DNA from: a virus
Reading direction: 5' to 3' (one strand)
IMG/VR virus record: IMGVR_UViG_3300020034_000005
Location: 1-64,000 of that record
Length of the DNA stretch: 64,000 nt
The notes under the pieces: generated by a model
What the model was told of the DNA's origin: nothing
Databases searched by the model: none
Seen by the model: only the letters and a program-made list of their open reading frames with translations
Position numbers and translations under genes: made by a program
Shown here: one piece after another, positions 5,861-60,550 of the stretch
How positions within the stretch are numbered: position 1 is the first letter of the stretch
How the letters are laid out: each line of letters starts with the position of its first letter

Positions 5861-6820
5861 ATGGTGGCTACGGCCCCCCTCAAGCTGAGTGATATCAACG
5901 CATCACTCCTGCCGCGGACCCTCGCAGGTCCCATCTTCGAGAAGAGCGTCGAGCAGTCGGCGGTGATGGCGCTCGCGCGTCCGGCGCCGCTGGCGATCGA
6001 CGCGACCACGTCTATCCCGATCCCGATGGACGTGCCGGTCGCCGACTGGGTCGGCCAGGCCAGCCGGAAGCCGCTGTCGAGCGGCGGCGTCAGCATCAAG
6101 CAGATGACGGCGAAGAAGGTCGCCGTCCTGATCCCTGTGGCCGAAGAGGTCGCGATGACCAACGCTGGCGGGCTGTACACCCAGCTCCAGCGTGACCTGC
6201 CGACCGCGTTCGCGAGGGCTTTCGACCACGCGGCGATCCACGGCCTGACCATGAAGGGTGCGGCCGGGCCGTTCGACGACTACCTCGCGGAGACCACCAA
6301 CTCGGTGGCGCTCGGCACGGCAGACCAGGCCCATGGCGGCGTCTGGGCGGACTTCGTGAACGGCATGGGCCTGGTCATCAACGATGACTGGGACTACACC
6401 GGTACGGTCGCCGACCACCGCCTCAAGCCGCGGCTGCTGCTCGCGACGGACACCACGGGCCGGCCGATCCTGGTCGACACCACGGTGCCGGGGACGCAAA
6501 TGGCGTCTGCGGGCACGCTGATCGGTGAGCCGCTGGCGTACTCGCGGTCGGTGTCGGGCAAGCAGCGGCGTCAGTCGACTTCGGCGGACACCGGGCTGCG
6601 TGCGATCGGCGGTGACTGGTCCCAGGCTGCTTACGGCGTGGGAATGGACATCACGGTACGTATCAGCAAGGAAGCGACATATGTGGACGAGGATGGCGGC
6701 GTCCACTCGGCGTTCCAGGAGAACCTCGTCCTCATTCTCGCGGAGGCCTACTACGGCTACGTGCAGGGCGACGCGCAGGCGTTCGTGAAGTACACCGGCA
6801 CGGCTGGCTCCAGCTCGTGA
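5861..6820 (+). CDS. major capsid protein, HK97-like fold
   Basis: A 319-residue protein following the scaffold gene. Length, position, and family segments such as an N-terminal arm, WVGQASRKPLSSGG and a KKVAVLIPVAEEV strand (the spine/E-loop region of HK97-like capsid proteins) support the call. It would form the hexamers and pentamers of the icosahedral head. AGAAGGA (5851-5857) precedes ATG 5861. The stop overlaps the GTG of the glycosyltransferase by four bases, tying that enzyme to capsid expression. The C-terminus ends in a Gly/Ser-rich stretch, a chemically plausible target for O-linked sugars, but that is inference. Confidence 0.93.
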   Translation: MVATAPLKLSDINASLLPRTLAGPIFEKSVEQSAVMALARPAPLAIDATTSIPIPMDVPVADWVGQASRKPLSSGGVSIKQMTAKKVAVLIPVAEEVAMTNAGGLYTQLQRDLPTAFARAFDHAAIHGLTMKGAAGPFDDYLAETTNSVALGTADQAHGGVWADFVNGMGLVINDDWDYTGTVADHRLKPRLLLATDTTGRPILVDTTVPGTQMASAGTLIGEPLAYSRSVSGKQRRQSTSADTGLRAIGGDWSQAAYGVGMDITVRISKEATYVDEDGGVHSAFQENLVLILAEAYYGYVQGDAQAFVKYTGTAGSSS

Positions 6821-7827
6821 CGGCAGCGGGCGGTGGCCGTCCGATGCAGGTCGTCGCCCGGCTGCACGCTGCTCCGCCCCGGCACAACGCCGGGGCGGAG
6901 TGGATGGCCTGGAGCATGTTCCGGGCTCTGGTCGAGCGGGGGCATGAGGTCACGGTGTGGCTGTCCCGCTACGGCGAGGATCACGAACCGTATGAGCTGG
7001 ACGGCGTGAAGGTCGTGCCGCTGGAGTCGAGACTGGACTTCGCGTCTGCGGTGCGCCGCGGAAGCGTCCTGGTGTCACACCTGGAGAACGTTCCGCCGAC
7101 GGCGGCCCTGTCGCGAGGCTATGGGAAGCCGTTCGTGGCGATCTGCCACAACACGTTCCTGCCGACGTTCAGGGACATGGCGTCGGGTGGAACAGCCTTG
7201 GCGGTCTACAACTCACAGTGGATGGCGAAGGAAGCCGAGCTCCACTTCGTGGATCACCCCAAGTCGGTGCGGCCCGAGGCGTCGATCATTGTGCGGCCCC
7301 CGGTGTTCGCCAAGGAGTACGCGACGAAGCCCGGCGACCGCGTGACACTGATCAACACCAACCCCGACAAGGGCGGCCTGCTGTTCCACAAGCTGGCCAA
7401 GCGGATGCCGGACACCAAGTTCCTGGTCGTGAAGGGCTCCTACGGAGAGCAGACCGACTACTCGGATCTCCCGAACGTTGAGGAAGTCCAGCACGTGTCA
7501 GGGCACGAAATGCGCGAGGCGGTGTACGCGCGAACGCGTCTGCTGCTGATGCCGTCGTTCTACGAGTCGTGGGGACGTGCCGGTGTAGAGGCTCTCGCGT
7601 CTGGCATCCCGGTCCTGGCCCACCCCACACCCGGCCTATGCGAATCCCTCGGCGAGGGCGGGATCTTCATCGAACGCCAGGACCTCGACGGCTACGAGGC
7701 GGTCATCCGCAAGCTCAAGACGCCAGCCGAGTACCGGCTGGCGTCCAAGCGGGCGAAGGCCCGCAGCGCCGAGCTGGACCCGGCATCCGATCTGGCCGCC
7801 TGGTGTGAGGCTGTCGAATCCCTGTAG
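6817..7827 (+). CDS. glycosyltransferase, GT4-like (GT-B fold), inside the virion operon
   Basis: A 336-residue protein resembling family-4, GT-B fold transferases. The N-terminal domain opens with a strand-loop containing HAAPPRHNAGAEWMAWSM (about 17-34). The C-terminal nucleotide-sugar domain ends with the diagnostic MPSFYESWGRAGVEALASG segment (about 245-263) and PVLAHPTPGLCESLG, which fit the family's E-x7-E donor-binding motif. It would move a sugar from a nucleotide donor onto an unknown acceptor in the cytoplasm. GTG 6817 overlaps the capsid stop (GTGA); ATG 6844 is the alternative. Its place between the capsid and head-tail connector genes suggests a virion protein as acceptor. Glycosylated virions with phage-encoded transferases are known in mycobacteriophages. 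Confidence 0.85.
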   Translation: MTAAGGGRPMQVVARLHAAPPRHNAGAEWMAWSMFRALVERGHEVTVWLSRYGEDHEPYELDGVKVVPLESRLDFASAVRRGSVLVSHLENVPPTAALSRGYGKPFVAICHNTFLPTFRDMASGGTALAVYNSQWMAKEAELHFVDHPKSVRPEASIIVRPPVFAKEYATKPGDRVTLINTNPDKGGLLFHKLAKRMPDTKFLVVKGSYGEQTDYSDLPNVEEVQHVSGHEMREAVYARTRLLLMPSFYESWGRAGVEALASGIPVLAHPTPGLCESLGEGGIFIERQDLDGYEAVIRKLKTPAEYRLASKRAKARSAELDPASDLAAWCEAVESL

Positions 7828-7835
7828 GAGGCGCT

Positions 7836-8249
7836 GTGTTCACTGCTCCTACGGCCGAGGATCTCGGCCTCTACCTGGGTCTCGAAGAGATCAGCGGGGA
7901 ACGTGCGGACCTTCTGATCGCGCAGGCTGTTTCGCTGTGCCTGTCGGTGGTGAAGCCGTTGCCGGACGAGGCGACCGCGGTGGTCCTTTCGGTTGCGGCC
8001 CGCGCGTATGTGAATCCGCAGCAGGTGTCCTACGAGACGATCGGCCCGATGTCCGTGCAGCGCCCGTCCGGCTCGGGCGGCCTGTATCTGACGAAGGCGG
8101 ACAAGGCGGCCCTCAAGGCGCTGGCTGGCCGTGGTGGTGCGTTCACCGTGGATCCGACCCCGGCCACGGCGGACCCGTCGCCGACGTGGCCGATCGACGC
8201 CACTCCGGGGCCAGGTCTCGAGTGCGAGCCGGGCTGGGGGTACATCTGA
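7836..8249 (+). CDS. head-tail adaptor (connector)
   Basis: A 137-residue protein of the gp6-like head-tail connector type. It starts MFTAPTAEDLGLYLG, with a helical first half whose conserved spacing (YLG...ANLLI-like, VVLSVAARAYVNP) is typical. It would bind under the portal. GTG 7836 has GGAGG at 7827-7831. The C-terminal 40 residues are Pro/Gly-rich and probably unstructured. The stop overlaps the next start (TGATG). Confidence 0.78.
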   Translation: MFTAPTAEDLGLYLGLEEISGERADLLIAQAVSLCLSVVKPLPDEATAVVLSVAARAYVNPQQVSYETIGPMSVQRPSGSGGLYLTKADKAALKALAGRGGAFTVDPTPATADPSPTWPIDATPGPGLECEPGWGYI

Positions 8250-8611
8250 TGTCTGCCCCGTACCCGTTCGGGGAGACCGTGCGGATCGTCCGTACCGGCA
8301 CGTCGCCGGGCCGTGATCCCCGCGGTCAGCCGCTTCCCGGTGTGGACGAGTCGTTCGATCTGCACGGCTGTGTGGTGACCCCGCGGGCGGAGACGCCCGC
8401 GGTGGGCGGCGCGCAGCAGCAGGACCGGGACACGGTGATTGTCGGCTGGACCGTGTACGCCTTTGCCGGCCACCCGTTGCGAACCACGGACGGCGCGGTC
8501 ATCCGTGGGGTCCGGTGTGAGATCACCGGGGAGCCCGGCGACTGGGGTCGCAGCCCCTTCACCGGCCTCCGGGGTCCGCTGCAGTTCGCTGCGGACCGGG
8601 TCACGGGGTAG
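8249..8611 (+). CDS. head-tail stopper
   Basis: A 120-residue, beta-rich protein in the position of the head-completion stopper (SPP1 gp16 / HK97 gp7-like). It begins MSAPYPFGETVRIVR and has alternating hydrophobic strands (TVIVGWTVYAF). It would plug the portal after packaging and join head to tail. The stop at 8611 overlaps the 3' end of an opposite-strand gene by 11 bases. Assignment is mostly by position. Confidence 0.72.
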   Translation: MSAPYPFGETVRIVRTGTSPGRDPRGQPLPGVDESFDLHGCVVTPRAETPAVGGAQQQDRDTVIVGWTVYAFAGHPLRTTDGAVIRGVRCEITGEPGDWGRSPFTGLRGPLQFAADRVTG

Positions 8612-8927
8612 GGCGGGCCTGTTCGACGGCGGCCACGAGTTTCTCCGCGGCGTCGTTGGCGCTGCGGCGGATGGACAAGCTGTGCGGGTCGGACTGTGGC
8701 GGCCGGCCGCCGGACAGCAGGCCCTTCGATTCGGTGGCGGGTGTGCTGCCGGGCAGGACGAACTGCATGTAGCCGTGGAACAGGCGTGTGCCAGGCTTGA
8801 GCCTGGTGCCGGTCACCTCGGCGGCCCGGATGCGGAACTGCCGCTGCTGCTGGCCGACTTCCTTCTTCGTAATGGTGATCCATTCGCCGTCGAAGTTCAC
8901 AGATCCCATGACGCCTTTGACGTCCAT
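8601..8927 (-). CDS. DUF4429-like protein encoded against the head-tail operon
   Basis: A 108-residue protein on the minus strand, filling the 343-base gap in the late operon. Residues 9-20 (SVNFDGEWITIT) and later RLFHGYMQFVLPGS, DPHSLSIRR and NDAAEKLVAAVEQ follow the pattern of DUF4429-type domains with a SHOCT-like C-terminal helix found in Streptomyces proteins. ATG 8927 has a GGGGG run about six bases upstream. The 3' end overlaps the stopper gene tail to tail. It is probably a moron expressed independently of the late genes, perhaps in the lysogen. I see no clear promoter: one would have to lie inside the next gene. Function unknown; the domain call is by eye. Confidence 0.7.
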   Translation of the reverse strand: MDVKGVMGSVNFDGEWITITKKEVGQQQRQFRIRAAEVTGTRLKPGTRLFHGYMQFVLPGSTPATESKGLLSGGRPPQSDPHSLSIRRSANDAAEKLVAAVEQARPTP

Positions 8928-8954
8928 GCCGCCCCCAGGTGAGTCGAGGTGGTC

Positions 8955-9287
8955 ATGATGCCCGCGAAGTTCAAGATGTCCAAGAAGGGCGTCGGACAGC
9001 TGCTGAAGTCCCGCATGATCCAGGCGGACATGCTGGCCCGGGCAGAGCGAATCGAGGCGGCCGCAGTGGGCCTCTCTCCGGCGGGCGGCGCGTCCGACCC
9101 CCACCCGGGGCACTACAAGGGGTCGTTCATCGTGACGACCACGGCCCGCGGGGGGCGCCGCAGAGACCGTGCGACGGCCACGGTCACGAACACCGCGTAC
9201 TACGCCCGCTGGGTGGAGTACGGCACGGAGAAGGTCCCCGCGCATCACGTACTCCTGCGGGCTGCCGCTGCGGGTGGAGGGGCCTGA
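8955..9287 (+). CDS. HK97 gp10-like tail completion / minor structural protein
   Basis: About 110 residues. A basic N-terminal helix (KFKMSKKGVGQLLKSRMIQADMLARAERIE) is followed by YKGSF, TATVTNTAYYARWVEYGTEK and H-x-L-x-x-A. The AYYARWVEYGTE pattern is characteristic of HK97 gp10/putative tail-completion proteins. It would help seal the head-tail joint. ATG 8955 and ATG 8958 are adjacent candidate starts, with GAGG at 8946-8949. The stop overlaps the next start (TGATG). Confidence 0.75.
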   Translation: MMPAKFKMSKKGVGQLLKSRMIQADMLARAERIEAAAVGLSPAGGASDPHPGHYKGSFIVTTTARGGRRRDRATATVTNTAYYARWVEYGTEKVPAHHVLLRAAAAGGGA

Positions 9288-9688
9288 TGGCCGCCGTCGG
9301 GTCGGTAGACGTGGAGCTGGACCTCATCGGCTGGCTGCAGGCGAAATTCGGCGGCGACGCGGTGGTCCGCGACGAGGTCGACAACAACCTCCTCAACGAA
9401 CTGCCGACCGTGCAACTGCAGCGGCTCCCCGCCGGCGGCGACGACGGGTACCGCCTGGACCGCGCCCTGATCGACATCGACGTGTACGCGGCGACGCGCG
9501 GCGAAGCCATTGCGATGGCCTCTCTGATCCGGGGCTGGCTCCTCACCGAGCTGCGCGGATCCTCGACCAGCCGTGCCGTGTACGGGCTCATCAGATCCTC
9601 ACCACCGCCCGCCATCCGCCCCTACGAAAATCTAGGGCTCCGACGTGTCGGGGCCACCTACGAGATCTACTGTCACCCGGTTTCCTGA
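9287..9688 (+). CDS. tail terminator protein
   Basis: A 133-residue protein in the tail-terminator position, directly before the major tail protein. It starts MAAVGSVDVELDLIGWLQAKF, then LPTVQLQRLPAGG, a charged LDRALIDIDVYAATRGEAIAMA helix and VGATYEIYCHPV at the end, in line with the mixed alpha/beta gpU-like fold. It would cap the tail tube once full length is reached. Assignment is by position and general pattern. Confidence 0.72.
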   Translation: MAAVGSVDVELDLIGWLQAKFGGDAVVRDEVDNNLLNELPTVQLQRLPAGGDDGYRLDRALIDIDVYAATRGEAIAMASLIRGWLLTELRGSSTSRAVYGLIRSSPPPAIRPYENLGLRRVGATYEIYCHPVS

Positions 9689-9758: not shown

Positions 9759-10346
9759 ATGGTCAACATCACGCGTGCTGCAGATCTGATGGAGGTCGGT
9801 GCCAACGGCGGCGGCTGGTGCGCCGACCTCGGTACGGCGTCCCCGGGCGATCCGGCGGTTCAGCCGGGGGTCCTGTGGTCGCCGATCGGCGCGATCAGCG
9901 ACGACGGCCTGGTGCAGGGTTTCGACGAGGACTCCCAGACGTACACCCCGTGGGGGTTCACGTCTCCTGTCCGTACCACGATCACGAAGTCCCTGCGCAC
10001 GTTCAAGATCACCGCGTGGGAGACGGGCCGCACCACCGTCCAGTCGCTCCAGTACCGCATCCCGGTCGCCGACCTGGCCCCGAGTGTCGGCGGGCTGACC
10101 GCGTTCGCTGAGACGGCGTCGCCGCAGCCGGACCGGCGTGCGTTCTGGTTCATCGTCGAGGACGGTGAGCTGCTGCGCGGATTCTTCTGCCCGGAGGCGG
10201 AGGTGTCGGACCGGTCCGACGTCACGCACAAGCAGGACGAAATGGCCGGCTTCGAGTGGACCATCACCTGCTACCCGGACGAGGCAGGCAACACCGTCTA
10301 CCACGCGGACCGGGTACCGGAGACCGCCGAGTACACCGGTTCCTGA
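9759..10346 (+). CDS. major tail protein
   Basis: A 195-residue protein that would polymerise into the tail tube. It begins MVNITRAADLMEVGANGGGW, has the SDDGLVQGFDEDSQTYTPWG and SLRTFKITAWETGRTTVQSL segments typical of siphophage tube proteins, and ends with an EWTITCYPDEAGNT strand. It is flanked on both sides by strong hairpins and followed by the frameshifted chaperone genes, the standard order. GGGAGA lies shortly upstream of ATG 9759. Confidence 0.88.
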   Translation: MVNITRAADLMEVGANGGGWCADLGTASPGDPAVQPGVLWSPIGAISDDGLVQGFDEDSQTYTPWGFTSPVRTTITKSLRTFKITAWETGRTTVQSLQYRIPVADLAPSVGGLTAFAETASPQPDRRAFWFIVEDGELLRGFFCPEAEVSDRSDVTHKQDEMAGFEWTITCYPDEAGNTVYHADRVPETAEYTGS

Positions 10347-58889: not shown

Positions 58890-59060
58890 ATGTCAGACCA
58901 CGGCCAACTCGCACACACCGGAATCGGCACCGTCGTCATCGGCGGCACCGCCTACTACATCGGCGGCTGGATGATCCTCGCCGCGCTCCTCCTCGTCGCC
59001 ACCGGAACCCTCCTCATCCGCCTCCGCTTCCGCCGCGGACGCACCGTCGGTGAGAAGTGA
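58890..59060 (+). CDS. 56-residue membrane protein with LAXTG-like sorting motif
   Basis: A 56-residue protein beginning MSDHGQLAHTGIGTVVIGG. LAHTG near 7-11 fits the LAXTG sorting motif of class E sortases, followed by a hydrophobic segment (about 28-43, WMILAALLLVATGTLLI) and a basic tail RLRFRRGR, the three parts of a cell-wall sorting signal. It has no signal peptide and almost no protein in front of the motif, which is unusual. ATG 58890 has GGGGA upstream. It overlaps the GT2 start by four bases, so the two are co-expressed. The motif may be coincidental. Confidence 0.65.
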   Translation: MSDHGQLAHTGIGTVVIGGTAYYIGGWMILAALLLVATGTLLIRLRFRRGRTVGEK

Positions 59061-60550
59061 CCGGACGCCGCCGCCGGACCCCGGTACTGGCCGCCCACCA
59101 GCACCGCTCCGGCACCATCCTCATCGGCATCGTCGTCCTCGGATGCGCCGCCGCCTGGGCCGCACAACACGCCCTCGCCGCCTCCGATTACGCCCACACA
59201 AGCAGCCGCCTCAGCCTCGTCTGGGTGGCCCTGTTCTTCGCGTTCATGACGCAGACGCTCATGTACCACCTGGAGCGCCCCAGGAAGGTCAGCGCCCGGC
59301 AGCAGCGGTATCTCGACAGCCTCCACATATCGATCCTCGTGCCCGTCTACAACGAGGACCCCGGATACCTGCGCCTCGGTCTGGAATCGTTCCTCCGCCA
59401 GACCCGCATGCCGGACTCCGTGCACATCGTCGACGACGGCAGCACCAGCTCCGACTACACCCACATCCGCACCTGGTGGCAGCAGGCAGCCCGTAACGCC
59501 GGACTTCACACCACCTGGCAGCGCATCCCCAACGCGGGGAAACGGCACGCCCAGGCCAACGCCGTCGACCGCAGCGGCGACGCGGACATTTACATCACGT
59601 GCGACTCCGACAGCTGCTTTGCCCCCAACGCTGTTGCCGAAGCCCTCGCCCCGTTCGCCCGGCCGCGCGTGCAGTCGGTCGCCGGGATCGTCATCGCCAC
59701 GAACAACCACGCCAGTCTCCTGGCCCGTGTCACTGACCTGTGGTTCACCACCACCCAGCTCGTCGACCGGTCCGGGCAGTCCGCGGTCGGCGCCGTCATG
59801 GTGAACTCCGGTCCCCTCGCCGCGTACCGGGCGGGCATCATCCGCGACAACCTCGGCAGCTATTTGAACGAAACGTTCATGGGCCGCCCGGTGATGTTCT
59901 CCGACGACAGCCTCCTCACCCTGTACGCGCAGGAGCGCGGCCTGACCGTTCAGCAGCCGTCCGCGGTGGTGTTCACGGCGATGCCGGAGAGCTGGGGGCA
60001 TTTCTCCCGCATGTACCTGCGGTGGATGCGCGGCTCCACGATCCGGTCGGTGTGGCGGATGCGGTACCTGTCGGTGGCGCGGCCTGCGTTCTGGCTGCAC
60101 CTGCTGCGCTGGTTCCAGGTGTTCCTCGTCCAGATGGTCACCGTGTGGCTGGTGCTCGTCGAGCCGATCGCGTACACGAATCTGCCGCCGTTGAGCATGC
60201 TGTGGGTGCCGTTCCTCATCGGCTGGGCGCAGGGGTTGCGCTACCTGAGTGTGATCCGCAGCGATGAGCGGATCCGGTCGCGGGCGGTGACGTGGCTCCT
60301 GATGCCCCTGGCGATCGTCCTGGCGTGGACGGCGCTGCGGTGGTTGCGCTGGTACGGCATCGCGACGTGCGCCCGCACCGGCTGGGGGACCCGCCAGAAC
60401 GGCGCCGAAGTGTCCCTCGCCACCGCGGTCGGCCCGCAGCCCCTGGCGGCGGCGATGCTCGCAGACTTCCCGACGGCGCGAGTGCGGGCCGTCAAGCTCC
60501 TCGATGTGGACACCGAGACCACCCTGCAAACCGCCCTGCCCCGCCGGTAG
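59057..60550 (+). CDS. membrane glycosyltransferase family 2 (hyaluronan synthase-like)
   Basis: A 497-residue protein. Two N-terminal membrane segments (about 17-36 and 54-71) precede the GT-A domain: LVPVYNED (about 97-104), a first Asp region HIVDDGSTSSD (about 122-132), the D-x-D ITCDSDSC (about 178-184), then FSDDSLLTL (about 279-287) and SRMYLRWMRGS (about 316-326). The last corresponds to the Q-x2-R-W processivity motif, with Met replacing Gln. Three to four further membrane segments follow (about 345-420). It would make or transfer a glycan at the inner membrane. GTG 59057 overlaps the 56-residue LAXTG-like gene. A phage could use it to alter the receptor or coat. Confidence 0.85.
   Translation: MTGRRRRTPVLAAHQHRSGTILIGIVVLGCAAAWAAQHALAASDYAHTSSRLSLVWVALFFAFMTQTLMYHLERPRKVSARQQRYLDSLHISILVPVYNEDPGYLRLGLESFLRQTRMPDSVHIVDDGSTSSDYTHIRTWWQQAARNAGLHTTWQRIPNAGKRHAQANAVDRSGDADIYITCDSDSCFAPNAVAEALAPFARPRVQSVAGIVIATNNHASLLARVTDLWFTTTQLVDRSGQSAVGAVMVNSGPLAAYRAGIIRDNLGSYLNETFMGRPVMFSDDSLLTLYAQERGLTVQQPSAVVFTAMPESWGHFSRMYLRWMRGSTIRSVWRMRYLSVARPAFWLHLLRWFQVFLVQMVTVWLVLVEPIAYTNLPPLSMLWVPFLIGWAQGLRYLSVIRSDERIRSRAVTWLLMPLAIVLAWTALRWLRWYGIATCARTGWGTRQNGAEVSLATAVGPQPLAAAMLADFPTARVRAVKLLDVDTETTLQTALPRR

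Follow-up and report, generated by a model that had tools for sequence, protein, structure and literature searches.

A glycosyltransferase gene overlapping the capsid gene, and the conserved C-terminal serines of capsid and tail tube proteins, as a candidate system for virion glycosylation in Streptomyces-type phages

What might a glycosyltransferase be doing among the structural genes of a tailed phage, with its start codon lying inside the stop codon of the major capsid gene? The question is raised by a 64,000-nucleotide stretch of viral DNA (hereafter the window; positions 1 to 64,000 of IMG/VR record IMGVR_UViG_3300020034_000005), which belongs to a virus record of 90,318 bases. A first-pass annotation of the window had pointed out the gene and proposed that its product glycosylates virion proteins; our analysis confirmed the observation of a capsid-coupled glycosyltransferase gene and partly supported the interpretation placed upon it. 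On the basis of comparative sequence evidence, we consider it likely that the glycosyltransferase (GT) O-glycosylates the C-terminal serine tails of both the capsid and the tail tube subunits, in a manner resembling that of mycobacteriophages but by means of a non-homologous, capsid-coupled enzyme.

The glycosyltransferase and its place in the structural operon

Table 1. Coordinates in the window of the genes and sequence features discussed in the text.
Feature	Position	Strand	Description and evidence
Major capsid protein (MCP)	5861..6820	+	HK97-type, 319 aa; Pfam Phage_capsid 1.8e-18; PHROG 10 major head protein 3e-39; TIGR01554
C-terminal tail of MCP, residues 313-319	6797..6817	+	Ser-ended, proposed acceptor; terminal S/T statistics, disorder in model
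GTGA stop-start overlap of MCP and GT	6817..6820	+	Start overlap common to 116/135 distinct junctions
GT4-type glycosyltransferase (GT)	6817..7827	+	336 aa, GTG start, GT-B fold; Pfam, PHROG 26352, AlphaFold, Foldseek
His111 of GT	7147..7149	+	Candidate N-domain active-site His; invariant in 55 aligned relatives
EX7E motif of GT, E250-SWGRAGV-E258	7564..7590	+	Both Glu invariant in 55 relatives
Head-tail adaptor Ad1	7836..8249	+	Gene right after GT in the operon; PHROG 137 3.8e-12
Major tail (tube) protein (MTP)	9759..10346	+	195 aa; PHROG 117/476 major tail protein
C-terminal YTGS of MTP	10332..10343	+	Proposed second acceptor; terminal-Ser statistics, lowest-entropy tail position

The TGA stop codon of the MCP gene and the GTG start codon of the GT gene share letters as GTGA, and this overlap, together with Pfam matches to GT4-type families, confirms the first-pass description of a GT4-like gene that begins inside the capsid stop codon. 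The arrangement is common, an overlap of this kind being present at 116 of 135 distinct MCP-GT junctions (85 TGATG, 30 GTGA, and 1 other). An internal ATG of the window at 6844 was also considered as the start of GT and was rejected, because most relatives lack a start codon at that position and start instead at the overlap with the MCP stop, which makes GTG 6817 the preferred start. The stop-start layout is that expected for translational coupling from MCP to GT, by which the enzyme would be made along with MCP in the late structural operon. A frameshift fusion of the two proteins was set aside: although GT does lie in the -1 frame, the layout is accounted for by the overlap together with the conserved ATG/GTG, and visual inspection showed no apparent slippery site.

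GT matched three Pfam families above their curated cut-offs, Glyco_trans_1_4 (6.8e-11), Glycos_transf_1 (8.5e-11), and Glyco_transf_4 (2.8e-7), with bit scores of 43 against a cut-off of 27 for PF13692 and 42.1 against 26.4 for PF00534. It was also matched over its whole length (residues 7-336) by PHROG 26352 at 2.4e-158, a family annotated as function unknown. EX7E is the motif of retaining GT4 enzymes and it is intact in GT, with residues E250, E258, H111, K185, and G26 all invariant in an alignment of 55 relatives; judging by GT4 enzymes in general, His111 is a candidate for the active-site histidine of the N-domain. The AlphaFold model of GT has a pLDDT of 93.2 and in a Foldseek comparison with solved structures was nearest to the GT-B enzymes MshA, BshA, PglA, and PimA, with SdgB lower at rank 44, while the TIGR models for MshA and BshA matched GT weakly, far below their equivalog cut-offs. 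Purifying selection is evidenced by dN/dS values of 0.12-0.26 relative to seven relatives. GT is thus intact and under selection, is probably active as an enzyme, and would be a soluble, retaining GT4-type enzyme. A role in anti-phage defense (GT4-conflict) was rejected, as GT had no match in PADLOC; a match to PF20706 covers residues 232-281 only, that is, a generic motif.

Upstream of GT in the window are the genes for terminase, portal, a VG15/head-maturation protein, scaffold, and the HK97-type capsid, and downstream are those for Ad1, the tail terminator, MTP, and a long tape-measure-like ORF. The first-pass statement that the transferase precedes the connector genes holds, the next gene being that of the adaptor. 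Inside the operon, between stopper and g10, the window has a minus-strand ORF (8601-9248); in a plasmid relative this place is occupied by a DUF4429 gene, also on the minus strand.

The gene order MCP-GT-Ad1-MTP was seen in 125 related loci from viral contigs and bacterial genomes, and all MCP relatives of at least 59% identity carry GT directly downstream of MCP. (The scans of viral contigs located GT in 37 loci, MCP in 80, and MTP in 23.) Such a recurrent order, combined with the frequency of the start overlap, shows that the association of MCP with GT is not due to chance. Three MTP loci had no GT match (L118, L129, and L135), and their contigs begin within ~2.5 kb upstream of MTP. The MCP of Spartoi, used as a query against the viral contigs, gave no match.

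The bacterial genomes that carry GT are those of Streptomyces and a few Kitasatospora, Actinomadura, Nonomuraea, and Kutzneria, in support of the Streptomyces-type host suggested by the first-pass annotation. Two relatives with GT were deposited as plasmids, NZ_CP108705.1 (L310; 88,191 bp, circular) and NZ_CP109578.1 (92,397 bp), and in the former the terminase, portal, capsid, GT, and tail genes are ordered as in the window. The group therefore includes phage-plasmids. Streptomyces phage ZL12 (pZL12) was rejected as a close relative, as the annotation of its morphogenesis region differs and the stretches examined contain no annotated full-length GT.

Terminal serines of the capsid and tail tube proteins

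The MCP of the window ends in TGTAGSSS, with residues 316-319 modelled as disordered (pLDDT <50), and its MTP ends in ETAEYTGS. The capsid C-terminus had been described in the first-pass annotation as Gly/Ser-rich; a short S/G tail is indeed present, but what matters is that its terminal serine is conserved, not that the stretch as a whole is Gly/Ser-rich. Among GT-bearing loci, 101 of 106 distinct MCPs end in S or T and 109 of 110 distinct MTPs end in S, compared with S/T ends in 13 of 65 MCPs and serine ends in none of 21 MTPs from GT-less relatives (Hum25-type capsids). Fisher tests of these differences gave values of 1e-25 (MCP) and 2e-23 (MTP) that ignore the kinship of the loci, and as the loci are phylogenetically related the counts overstate their independence. 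Twelve named GT-less phages also fit the pattern, AppleCloud being the only one with an MCP ending in S. Thus the terminal-serine signature on MCP and MTP tracks the presence of GT. Variability along the tail is lowest at the final residue (0.97 bits in MCP and 0.22 bits in MTP), and the MTP tails vary ahead of their final serine (e.g., YTGS, YSGS, ADPLS, SETVS, AEPAS, and GGGGS).

Other proteins of the same loci mostly end differently, with S or T at the terminus in 0-15% of cases for terminase, portal, VG15, scaffold, GT, stopper, g10, and g13, and in 19% for Ad1. The exceptions are the tape measure, Ser-ended in 32% of loci, and above all the tail terminator, g11, at 83%; for this reason a terminal serine alone is no proof of an acceptor. 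The serine of g11 (9269-9688, + strand, in the window) may reflect ancestry, or g11 may be a third acceptor.

Serine ends were also found on other capsids that are accompanied by the same GT family: an HK97-type MCP of 21-25% identity (TTAAS), the P22-type MCP of L205 (GSSSGS; its MTP ends in ASSS), and the MCP of TurkishDelight (SPGSTS; its MTP ends in CVAS). Conversely, locus L031 has kept MCP and GT and has an MTP of a different type, which ends in GAAS. That the tail tube protein shares the signature, and more strictly than the capsid protein, makes the glycosylated heads of the first-pass annotation too narrow a proposal.

In the mechanism that we favor, GT would draw on a host nucleotide-sugar as donor and transfer the sugar to the hydroxyl of serine (or threonine) in the tails, short and flexible, at the C-termini of MCP and MTP. 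Sugars on both tails would produce a glycosylated virion surface, and the benefit to the phage may lie in particle stability or in surface chemistry. Immune recognition, which had been put forward at first, is not a convincing purpose in a phage-plasmid from soil.

Which substrate? Two-enzyme phages and other explanations

One alternative, which we regard as unlikely although not negligible, is that GT modifies one protein only, most likely the tail tube, and that the other protein either retains its terminal serine for some other reason or is the substrate of a second enzyme. It draws on 13 loci with another capsid type, in which two GT paralogues flank the head-tail adaptor (MCP'-GT'-Ad2-GT-MTP), one copy following the capsid gene and one being nearer the tail genes. 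In the GT tree the first copies group together in a clade of their own and the second copies occur in two places, one set beside the GT of L172 and the other inside the group formed by the window and other single-GT loci. L172 itself has a single GT that does not adjoin MCP, and its MCP ends in ADVA and its MTP in EEHMS; the greater strictness of the MTP serine (109/110) relative to that of MCP also fits. These features are hints, at the level of sequence, that two-GT phages may have head- and tail-specific enzymes. However, the group to which the window belongs has one GT, placed against MCP, yet both MCP and MTP are Ser-ended, and in L031, where MCP and GT are kept, the different MTP is again Ser-ended. 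The MTP of L211 ends in LTP, and L211-L213 are mixed; based on the two-GT phages, L172, and L211, the assignment of enzymes to head or tail is not uniform. (Two-GT phages with a different capsid are L027, L029, L030, L033-L037, L160, L164, L174, L175, L178, and L192.)

That the enzyme acts instead on the host, changing glycans of the cell wall or cell surface while the phage infects or persists as a lysogen (superinfection exclusion), would be in keeping with the small-molecule and lipid substrates of the nearest solved folds (MshA, PimA, and BshA) and with the weak TIGR matches. We think this very improbable, given that GT is locked between capsid and adaptor with a stop-start overlap in more than 100 loci, that its operon neighbors are virion genes and not surface-glycan genes, and that the serine signature of MCP and MTP tracks it. 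DNA glucosyltransferases are among the phage enzymes with this class of fold, so glucosylation of phage DNA was considered as well; we rejected it and give it almost no weight, as the thymidylate-synthase-type base hydroxymethylase that would be expected (PF00303) is absent from the 90-kb record, and an early-gene role would be expected whereas GT is in the late structural operon. Equally implausible to us is a selfish or regulatory passenger, with the terminal serine reflecting ancestry or a stop-codon context suited to coupling. Related loci do share ancestry, and coupling does constrain the last MCP codon, but the serine is stricter on MTP, the product of a gene uncoupled from GT; moreover, unrelated capsid families with GT are Ser-ended too, the residues before the last vary when the last does not, and GT is under purifying selection.

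The GT family is not restricted to virions, since homologs of ~50-57% identity are found in Streptomyces and Kitasatospora chromosomes (within L176-L209), many of them without capsid or tail genes by family searches. In the three loci checked (L180, L181, and L197) their neighbors include NHL/Kelch/beta-propeller proteins. These chromosomal homologs may have a function unconnected with phages.

Comparison with known systems and wider meaning

The cluster F1 mycobacteriophage Che8 is reported to have glycans on its major capsid protein (cited in PMC11256854), and PMC12619734 places mycobacteriophage glycosylation sites at the C-termini of the capsid and tail tube subunits; virion glycosylation of the Che8 type, by a phage-encoded GT, is also cited in PMC11600133. 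Like the window, Che8 has Ser-terminated tails on both proteins, its MCP ending in NKTGS and its MTP in SDGS. Unlike the window, with its one GT4-type gene coupled to MCP, Che8 has three GT2/GT25-type genes near the right end of its genome, and an hmmsearch with the GT family of the window found no match in these Che8 proteins (gp108-110). The tails are therefore of the same kind and the enzymes of different families, which would make this a case of convergence rather than one shared system. The mycobacteriophage-like glycosylation of the first-pass annotation stands as a resemblance in the serine tails, but not as homology of the enzymes. Its description as a new case for a Streptomyces phage would apply to experimental demonstration only, as the abstract of a 2023 Cell Host Microbe article by Freeman et al. 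reportedly mentions putative GTs encoded by some Streptomyces phages.

More tentatively, and with somewhat less than even confidence, we suggest that in the virions of tailed phages the terminal-serine tail may serve as a portable tag for glycosylation. The tag would be gained by unrelated capsid and tail tube proteins when a phage encodes a dedicated GT, non-homologous enzymes (GT4-type here, GT2/GT25-type in Che8, and perhaps that of L309) would have converged on it, and separate paralogs would serve head and tail in the two-GT phages. L309 (IMGVR_UViG_3300022214_000032) is the only MCP relative without this GT family whose MCP ends in TGS (NLTGS). Its 15.7 kb contig has four PF00535 (GT2-like) matches, two of them above the cut-off, and PF00535 was found in none of 19 control contigs of 15-44 kb with other MCP tails; PF00534 was found in none of these 20 contigs. 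This is one successful retrodiction, the GT content of L309 having been asked after its MCP tail was seen. The GT2-like matches cluster downstream of the capsid gene and may represent a further virion-glycosylation system. A second GT is also present in the window (59057-60550, + strand; 497 aa), of GT2 type, with NodC and PgaC/IcaA as its nearest NCBIfam models and no PHROG match; four related records of 87-90 kb had no match to PF00535.

In the literature searched we found no report of phage virion glycosylation beyond some mycobacteriophages. GT belongs to another family and is locked to the capsid gene in more than 100 phage loci of Streptomyces and its relatives; if it does glycosylate both tails, virion glycosylation would be widespread in actinobacterial phages and have arisen more than once. 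The terminal-serine signature is an inexpensive predictor and defines exactly which peptides to target by mass spectrometry, and were the tag indeed portable, C-terminal residues alone would help to predict virion glycosylation.

Among individual enzymes, gp20 of the Streptomyces phage TurkishDelight belongs to the same family as GT and similarly is encoded between an MCP and a major tail protein that are both Ser-ended, but it has 678 aa with two tandem PHROG 26352 domains, is 36-38% identical, accompanies a different capsid, and is not coupled to MCP. MshA, BshA, PimA, and PglA share the GT-B fold with GT, in which EX7E is present, but at 13-20% identity and with small molecules or lipids as acceptors. 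The staphylococcal SD-repeat protein O-glycosyltransferase SdgB is much longer than GT, has 17% identity to it, and modifies repeats rather than a C-terminus; it is nevertheless a GT-B enzyme that acts on the serines of proteins, as we propose for GT.
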